Assembly (NCBI GenBank): GCA_947627665.1
Contig: CANQWX010000006.1
Span: 1-64,000 of the forward strand
Direction of reading: 5' to 3'
Source of the DNA: an uncultured Clostridia bacterium
GTDB taxonomy: Bacteria; Bacillota; Clostridia; Christensenellales; Borkfalkiaceae
DNA: 64,000 bases
Shown here piece by piece: positions 41,745-46,401 of this stretch. The notes below the pieces were generated by a model that worked only from the letters and a program-made list of their open reading frames with translations, made no database searches and was not told the origin of the DNA. The translations under genes were made by a program, and so were the position numbers. The stretch's first letter is position 1. Each line of letters begins with the position of its first letter.

Positions 41745-42361
41745 TGCGGATCCCACTTGTTCCTGCCTGCCGCGCGGATGAGATAGTCGATCAGCTCCGT
41801 CCGCGCTTCGAGGATGTTGACCGTCTTTCCGGCAGAACCGCTATATAAAATGTAATAGAAATTTTTGTTCTCCGAGGGTTCCCTGTTGGGCGTGAGAAAG
41901 ACGATCTGCTTTCTGCCGAGGCCCGCGCAGGTGCGCTCGAAACTCAGGTTTTCACACTTGCCGATCTTGAGGATCTGGTCGCAGCGGAAGGTCATCAGGT
42001 GCTTGCGCTTCTTGCCGTTGAACACCTTGGACACCCGCAGCTCGTCCTCCACAAAGATGTAATCGAAGCTGACGTTGAAGCGGTTCTTCAAAAACCAGCA
42101 CAGGACGCCGCCGCCCGCAAAGAGCAGGAGCACCGAAAAGTAGGCGACGATGGAAAAGACGCGCGCCACGGTGTACACTTCCCCCGTATCCTTATTGACG
42201 GTGCCGTCCACCAGAATGGGGATCAATGTGAACGAAAAGAACAGAAGCACCACGGCGACCGCAAACGCGATGACCGCCGCCGCCTTGAAAACCGTATAGA
42301 TCTTAGCCTCCCGCACGCTCTTTTGGCAGGAGGCGCTCTCTTCACAATACGCTTCGCGCAT
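41741..42361 (-). CDS. small membrane protein with PH-like C-terminal region, function unknown
   Basis: A 206-residue protein that I do not recognise with certainty. The N-terminal ~40 residues are charged; two membrane helices follow (FKAAAVIAFAVAVVLLFFSF and VARVFSIVAYFSVLLLFAGGGVLCWFL); then a basic, beta-rich C-terminal domain (FDYIFVEDELRVSKVFNGKKRKHLMTF...) resembles bacterial PH-like domains of small Firmicute membrane proteins. Its ATG shares one base with the stop of the carB-dapF gene (TGATG) and its stop overlaps nifS, so it is translated as part of this operon. Confidence 0.65.
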   Translation of the reverse strand: MREAYCEESASCQKSVREAKIYTVFKAAAVIAFAVAVVLLFFSFTLIPILVDGTVNKDTGEVYTVARVFSIVAYFSVLLLFAGGGVLCWFLKNRFNVSFDYIFVEDELRVSKVFNGKKRKHLMTFRCDQILKIGKCENLSFERTCAGLGRKQIVFLTPNREPSENKNFYYILYSGSAGKTVNILEARTELIDYLIRAAGRNKWDPQ

Positions 42362-45300: not shown

Positions 45301-46401
45301 GTAGAGAAATTTATCGAAGGGCCACTTAGGGAGCTTGACCACCACATAGTCGAGCGCCGGCTCGAAACAGGCGCAGGTCTTGCCCGTGACGTCGTTCTTG
45401 ATCTCGTCGAGGGTGTAGCCGAGGGCGATCTTCGTGGCGACCTTGGCGATGGGATAGCCCGTTGCCTTGCTCGCCAGCGCCGAAGAGCGCGAAACGCGGG
45501 GATTGACCTCGATGACCGCATATTCGAAGCTCGTGGGATGGAGCGCGAACTGGCAGTTGCAGCCGCCCTCGATGCCAAGCTCGTTGATGATGTTGAGGGA
45601 CGCCGTGCGGAGCATCTGGTATTCCTTATCGGAGAGCGTGACCGCAGGCGCGATGACGATGGAATCCCCCGTGTGCACGCCGACGGGGTCGAAATTTTCC
45701 ATGGAACAGACGGTGATCACGTTGCCCGCGCCGTCCCGCAGGACTTCGAACTCGATCTCCTTCCAGCCGCCGATGTACTTCTCGATGAGCACCTGCGTAA
45801 TGGGCGAGAGCATAAGCCCGTTGTGGGAGATGAGGCGCAGCTCCTCTTCGTTATAGGCAACGCCGCCGCCCGCGCCGCCGAGGGTGAACGCAGGGCGCAC
45901 GATGACGGGATAGCCGAGCTTTTCCGCGACCGAAACGCACTCCTCCACGGTATAGGCGATGTCGGAGGGCACGACGGGCTGGCCGATCTTCTCCATCGTC
46001 TGTTTGAAGAGTTCTCTGTCCTCCGAGCGGTCGATGGCGTCGAGCTTGGTGCCGATGAGCTTGACCCCCCATTCGTCGAGGAAGCCGTCCTTGGCGAGCT
46101 TGCAGCCCATCGTAAGCCCCGTCTGCCCGCCCAGAGAGGCGAGAAGGGAGTCGGGGCGCTCTTTGATGATGACGCGCTTCAGGCTGTCCTCCGTGAGCGG
46201 TTCGAGGTAAATTTCGTCGGCGAGCATCTTGTCCGTCATGATGGTGGCGGGGTTGGAATTGCAGAGCACGACGTTCACGCCCGCGTCTTTGAGGACGCGG
46301 CACGCCTGCGCGCCCGCATAGTCGAACTCCGCGGCCTGCCCGATGACGATAGGCCCCGACCCGATGACAAGCACCTTTTGAATGTCTGATCTTTTCGGCA
46401 T
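42361..46401 (-). CDS. carB: carbamoyl-phosphate synthase large chain fused to a degenerate DapF-like domain
   Basis: A 1346-residue protein. Residues 1-~1070 are a complete CarB: two ATP-grasp halves ([21 protein letters not shown] and [21 protein letters not shown]), then an MGS allosteric domain. From about residue 1074 to the end is a DapF (diaminopimelate epimerase) fold starting [18 protein letters not shown] with no linker and no stop between. In this half the first catalytic Cys motif (normally MCGNG) reads NAANA, so Ala1147 replaces Cys. The second (normally ACGTGAC) reads AGGTGAA, so Gly1288 replaces Cys. The substrate Arg after Glu is also Gln. It is probably not a DAP epimerase. 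CarB should still make carbamoyl phosphate with CarA, encoded just upstream. Confidence 0.93.
   Translation of the reverse strand: [1346 protein letters not shown]

Follow-up and report, generated by a model that had tools for sequence, protein, structure and literature searches.

What does a DAP epimerase fold that has lost both of its catalytic cysteines do at the C-terminus of carbamoyl-phosphate synthase? The question is raised by a single gene in the window, the 64,000-nucleotide stretch of DNA from an uncultured Clostridia bacterium that was analysed here, in which the large subunit of the synthase (CarB) continues into a domain resembling DapF.

A complete CarB followed by a DapF-like domain

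The gene is a single ATG-started frame (42361-46401, minus strand) that encodes 1346 amino acids without interruption. In profile searches with the window protein, TIGR01369 (CPSase large subunit) spans residues 2-1051 with 1394.9 bits against a cut-off of 1027, and NF003671 matches the CarB part with 1439.5 bits against a cut-off of 599, so that the large subunit is complete and scores above the curated cut-off. Pfam identifies both ATP-grasp halves, the MGS domain and two DAP_epimerase stretches (PF02786, PF25596, PF02787, PF02142; PF01678), and 1bxr, which we take to be the solved structure of the E. coli CPSase large chain, aligns to residues 1-1015 with an E value of 7.3e-294. On the basis of TIGR01369, Pfam and 1bxr, the CarB portion comprises residues 1-1060 (43222..46401, minus strand), with two ATP-grasp halves and a C-terminal allosteric MGS domain at about residues 955-1041. 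Directly upstream lies carA, the small subunit of carbamoyl-phosphate synthase (46465..47535, minus strand, the exact start being approximate), which matches NF009475 with 440.9 bits against a cut-off of 221.

The DapF-like pseudo-epimerase domain occupies residues 1075-1346 (42364..43179, minus strand), as delimited by the two PF01678 stretches, by TIGR00652 (DapF), which spans residues 1078-1344, and by AlphaFold and Foldseek. Searched alone, the domain matches TIGR00652 over its full length (2-268 of 270) with 164.5 bits, the cut-off being 114.65, and is only a distant match to the bifunctional DapF/glutamate racemase profile NF038284 (67.3 bits, far under the cut-off of 350). The AlphaFold model of the MGS and DapF-like domains has a mean pLDDT of 87.6 and a pTM of 0.69; Foldseek places DapF structures at ranks 1-9 and O-ureidoserine racemase at rank 10, with TMt up to 0.83, and the RppH-DapF entries 6d13 and 6vck are among the matches. 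These results confirm what had been read from the sequence without searches, namely that a complete CarB and a DapF fold share one uninterrupted frame. The accompanying statement that no linker is present was not quite right, as 14 residues of CarB tail or linker (residues 1061-1074; 43180..43221, minus strand) separate the MGS domain from the DapF-like domain, and the first half of this segment is strongly conserved in fused relatives.

Catalytic and ligand residues of the window domain

Residue numbers given here for DapF (Cys73, Cys217 and so on) follow what we take to be the numbering of the H. influenzae enzyme, and the equivalent positions in the window protein were placed by alignment. 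Both catalytic cysteines are gone, as had been noticed from the translation: Ala1147 (42961..42963, minus strand, as for all residues here) occupies the position of Cys73 and Gly1288 (42538..42540) that of Cys217, and the motif MCGNG has become NAANA, with GNDF and NRDGSE still present. Beyond the cysteines, Gly74 is replaced by Ala1148, Asn157 by Gly1228 (42718..42720), Asn190 by Asp1261 (42619..42621) and Arg209 by Gln1280 (42562..42564). Retained are Asn11, Asn64 (Asn1138; 42988..42990), Asn75, Glu208 (Glu1279; 42565..42567), Gly218 and Thr219, of which Asn64 and Glu208 are kept in all nine domains that have lost both cysteines. The window domain therefore keeps five and loses three of the eight residues of the DAP-binding set (Asn11, Asn64, Asn75, Asn157, Asn190, Glu208, Arg209 and Thr219).

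According to a study of the Anabaena DapF (PMC12039745), Thr226 and the backbone of the residues that follow the two cysteines bind the proximal carboxylate, and Asn13 and Cys75 bind the proximal amine. Asn66 and Glu215 contact the distal amine; Arg216, Asn66, Asn164 and Asn197 contact the distal carboxylate. In these terms the three residues lost from the window domain, at the positions of Asn157, Asn190 and Arg209, are all ligands of the distal carboxylate, Glu208 is a ligand of the distal amine, and Asn64 contacts both distal groups. Across the window's clade, in which the Cys217 position is Ser or Gly, most distal-carboxylate ligands have been dropped, and the contacts to the distal amine and to the amino-acid end have been retained, a pattern that would suit a diamino-monocarboxylate. 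The conclusion that the window domain no longer acts as an epimerase is well supported by the loss of the cysteines. It also points to a hazard for annotation, as the TIGR00652 equivalog passes a domain that has neither cysteine (164.5 bits against 114.65) and a lysine pathway can thereby be wrongly filled.

The MurE encoded in the window (11979-13415; NF001126, 489.9 bits, cut-off 373) is indeed of the DAP type, and the expectation drawn from it, that another true DapF or an alternative DAP route should exist, is matched by an intact unfused DapF with both cysteines elsewhere in the genome (G000:C37:1043-1870; TIGR00652, 281.0 bits). No Ddh was found in this genome by profile search. That the cell should need the window domain as its epimerase is not favoured, given the intact unfused DapF. 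The murE gene, whose product carries the motif DNPR, forms part of a division and cell-wall cluster (11979-17473, minus strand) together with genes for a SpoVD-like penicillin-binding protein and RsmH. PyrB is the one transcarbamoylase found in the genome, no OTC being found in the assembly, which is 89% complete, and carbamoyl phosphate appears to serve pyrimidines only. As PyrB is the sole transcarbamoylase found, a link to the supply of UDP-MurNAc is more natural than one to arginine; control by ornithine or arginine is, at this completeness, not favoured.

The fusion and its cysteines among relatives

The sequence-only reading knew of no described CarB-DapF fusion, and we likewise found no paper on one in searches of the open-access literature. 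In genomes, a search for the fusion among relatives of the window found it. Two relatives (G006 and G007) carry the same fused frame, with 78-81% domain identity to the window, and no relative with a separate carB and an intact dapF at the same locus was seen. The fusion also occurs elsewhere in the order and the class and in named records, among them Candidatus Borkfalkia faecigallinarum and the isolate Evtepia gabavorous KLE1738. In the tree a Ca. Borkfalkia domain (L044) groups with that of G330, a member of the window's family, which would probably place the window's organism close to Borkfalkia. Among the matches listed, which provide 91 tabulated genomes, it is present in at least 40 family codes of the class. 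These rows, and the aligned rows considered below, derive from the genus, order and class matches listed together with the nearest 80 of 588 relatives and are a non-random sample; two pairs of rows are identical, and at least one genome (L103/L144) is common to the named-loci set and the 91-genome set.

The fusion is not universal, as many genomes of the order and class carry DapF, among the matches listed, only in short unfused frames. In four genomes (G393, G038, G052 and G074) CarB is unfused and 1060-1084 amino acids long, and since its C-terminal part is only 34-39% identical to that of the window CarB, CarB with and without the fusion may represent separate lineages. Twelve genomes of the window's own genus, several of them only 70-85% complete, have no listed full-length fused domain (G009, G010, G026, G028-G033, G035, G166 and G249); the C-terminal part of CarB was unmatched in 11 of these, with a weak partial match in G035, and G028 holds a 39-residue fragment of a fused-type domain at a contig end. 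The absence of CarB matches suggests loss of carbamoyl-phosphate synthase in these genomes rather than unfusing. One genome, G469, contains two fused CarB-DapF frames (on C89 and C56). Two non-fusion DapF frames each have one internal stop codon, a TAG in G437:C8:13454-14287 and a TGA in G011:C124:2426-3250.

The aligned fused domains number 137, that is, 136 plus L108, which has both cysteines and a CarB frame directly upstream with a run of N breaking the frame, and which is counted as fused here but was placed among the unfused when the trees and the ligand-residue table were computed. Thirty of the 137 keep both cysteines, 96 lack only Cys73, two lack only Cys217 and nine lack both; unfused DapF rows have both cysteines in 19 of 19. 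Where Cys73 alone is lost, it is replaced by Ala (69 rows), Gly (16), Ser (10) or Thr (1), and the residues corresponding to DAP contacts in PMC12039745 are nearly invariant: Asn64 is kept in 95 of the 96, Asn75 in 96, Asn157 in 95, Asn190 in 94, Glu208 in 95, Arg209 in 93 and Thr219 in 94, against a median column majority of 0.70 in the domain alignment. Asn11 is less constant (80 Asn, 15 Asp, 1 Ser). Among the matches listed, the 51 tabulated genomes with a lost cysteine lack Cys73 in 49 cases and Cys217 in six. The opposite loss, with Cys73 kept and Cys217 replaced by Ser (ASGSG), was seen in L133 and L134 (from G236 and G072), both in genomes that have Ddh.

A tree of 91 fused domains, built with the cysteine columns left out, requires 11 changes of cysteine state by parsimony and at least six on supported branches, and five family codes among the tabulated genomes of the matches listed contain both states. 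Such counts alone give no direction; we infer that the change probably ran from intact to lost.

The state of the cysteines is associated with the presence of other routes to meso-DAP. Among the matches listed, the fused domain retains both cysteines in 40 of the 91 genomes; 20 of these have no other route found, 14 have Ddh only and six have a second DapF match. Where a cysteine is lost (51 genomes), a second DapF match is present in 39 cases, Ddh only in ten and neither in two, both of which are MAGs that are 65% complete. Here every further match in the genome counts as a second DapF and the lack of Ddh means none above the cut-off; ten unfused domains that were fetched, seven of them from tabulated genomes, all have both cysteines. 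Fisher's test gives p 4.8e-7 for the 91 genomes, the rows being related; of six phylogenetically independent pairs, a mean of 2.5 agree with the association, 0.0 contradict it and 3.5 show no difference, which is too few for significance. Exceptions are more numerous among genomes reached through named loci (nearest 80 of 588 relatives): the 43 with a lost cysteine, at least one of which (that of L103) is also among the 91, include 30 with a second unfused match, four of these with E above 1e-20, and eight with Ddh. Neither route was found in four (G427, G441, G443 and G452), and G469 is the genome with two fused copies. Because half of the both-cysteine genomes (20 of 40) show no other meso-DAP route, the ancestor of the fusion was probably bifunctional. 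Six genomes combine an intact fused DapF with a second DapF match (L135, L139, L138, L209, L218 and L238), and these are possible intermediates before cysteine loss.

For the domain, 4 of 15 pairs within the window's clade gave a computable dN/dS, of 0.035-0.076, the other 11 being saturated or failing; for the CarB stretch the ratio is 0.007-0.02 where computed. A pair of modest divergence (L007-L036, dS 0.49) gives 0.035 for the domain. The NG86 method, which ignores codon bias, gives 0.07-0.63 for the domain in 14 pairs and 0.025-0.34 for CarB in the nine that were computable; L035-L036 is the only pair common to this set of 14 and the clade set of 15. The domain is under purifying selection and is constrained more loosely than CarB. 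In the window's clade it thus combines lost catalytic residues with purifying selection, as a pseudoenzyme does.

A possible sensor on CarB and its rivals

We suggest, with confidence that is evenly balanced, that this protein is a CarB whose MGS domain has been extended by a former DAP epimerase, with the retained pocket acting as an amino-acid sensor that tunes CarB. At its origin the fusion would have included a functional DapF and been a bifunctional enzyme, which is apparently still the sole meso-DAP route in some clostridia. In genomes that also encode an unfused DapF or a DAP dehydrogenase, the fused domain would often give up its epimerase chemistry, nearly always via Cys73, and its amino-acid pocket and fold would stay under selection after that residue was replaced. 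The retained pocket would bind meso-DAP or, more likely in the window's clade, a ligand without a distal carboxylate such as lysine. Closure of the domain could then be relayed through the short conserved tail NTELVDIN to the MGS domain, which would set carbamoyl-phosphate output and so match pyrimidine (UDP-sugar) supply to the supply of cell-wall amino acids; as to the direction of the effect, our guess is activation against UMP inhibition.

The best reading of the sequence comparisons is therefore a regulatory pseudo-epimerase on CarB that would sense DAP in most lineages and is altered in the window's clade; that the fused domain senses a ligand at all is what we infer from its pocket residues. 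A pseudoenzyme sensing DAP had been proposed for the window protein itself, and the idea gains comparative support from the relatives, but for the window protein DAP is a less likely ligand than for them because the residues that hold the distal carboxylate have been lost. Counter to the sensor view, six genomes keep both cysteines beside a second DapF match and 14 beside Ddh (among the matches listed), four cysteine-loss genomes from the named loci show neither route, and the domain evolves faster than CarB. A more far-reaching version, which we regard as doubtful, is that of a recurrent conversion across the class, the cysteine state having changed six or more times, in which the loss of about one residue would turn an active CarB-DapF into a DAP-binding pyrimidine regulator coupling UDP-sugar supply to meso-DAP. 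In the window's clade the pocket would have been re-tuned from DAP to a diamino-monocarboxylate (lysine or ornithine), precisely the distal-carboxylate ligands having been lost. If the domain does sense DAP or lysine, many clostridia would possess a direct metabolite link from cell-wall amino-acid supply to the entry step of the pyrimidine pathway, from which UDP-MurNAc also derives. Versions that are intact, inactivated at one cysteine or inactivated at both coexist and provide a natural series from enzyme to candidate regulator.

The strongest competitor of the sensor view, although in our judgement somewhat unlikely, is that the domain is a passenger, a relic made useless by another meso-DAP route that binds nothing and is kept for the folding or stability of the CarB C-terminus. 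Its faster evolution relative to CarB, the erosion of substrate ligands in the window's clade and the lack of significance of the independent-pairs test would all agree with this, but in a passenger the two cysteines would be expected to disappear about equally often, whereas Cys73 was lost in 49 and Cys217 in six of the 51 genomes (among the matches listed); nor would a passenger be expected to keep most ligand residues in 93-96 of 96 Cys73-less domains (Asn11 in 80) where the median column majority is 0.70. The presence in these 96 domains of Cys217 and an almost complete substrate site could alternatively reflect a new one-base enzyme, in which Cys73 has given way to Ala, Gly or Ser and another reaction of DAP or a similar amino acid, such as exchange or elimination, is catalysed. 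We consider this improbable: we know of no natural leaving-group substrate for such an enzyme, the annotated neighbours hint at no such pathway, and it is inapplicable to the window's clade, in which Cys217 is also Ser or Gly. In its favour, replacing one Cys by Ser in glutamate racemases yields enzymes that eliminate chloroglutamate, according to PMC8142540.

Improbable, too, is a role as a protein-interaction scaffold, in which the DapF dimer surface would assemble CarB or bind a partner independently of any ligand. E. coli DapF does bind and activate RppH without catalysis, as reported in PMC4227774 and reflected in entries 6d13 and 6vck, but a scaffold leaves the retention of pocket residues in Cys73-less lineages unexplained. 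The chance of an assembly or annotation artefact is practically nil, and we reject it: the window does come from a draft assembly of 46 contigs, but many genomes assembled independently of one another carry the fusion, as does the isolate E. gabavorous KLE1738, the ORF contains zero ambiguous bases, and the domain is under purifying selection.

For the preferred reading, a regulatory domain derived from an epimerase, known systems offer partial parallels. The doubly substituted E. coli DapF(C73&217A), although devoid of activity, still binds RppH and activates it (PMC4227774), so that DapF is there likewise a non-catalytic regulator of another enzyme; that DapF acts in trans and is natively an intact enzyme, whereas the window domain is a covalently attached pseudo-domain. 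The effector sites of CPSase sit in its C-terminal domain (PMC6245113), and the E. coli enzyme, whose allosteric domain responds to UMP, IMP and ornithine, shares with the window protein the MGS domain and hence regulation at the CarB C-terminus, but the window protein appears from its model to add a 270-residue fold of an amino-acid-binding type after the MGS domain. In the CAD-type CPSases, fungal pyrimidine CPS II is fused to an active or inactive DHO (PMC6022934), likewise a CPSase joined to a possibly dead enzyme domain. DHO belongs to the same pathway, whereas DapF is an enzyme of lysine and peptidoglycan synthesis and here follows the allosteric domain. To DapF itself (TIGR00652, PF01678) the likeness lies in the predicted fold, the full-length match and part of the pocket residues. 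The window domain differs from it in being fused to CarB and in lacking both catalytic cysteines and the distal-carboxylate ligands, and most of its aligned fused relatives differ in lacking Cys73 alone.
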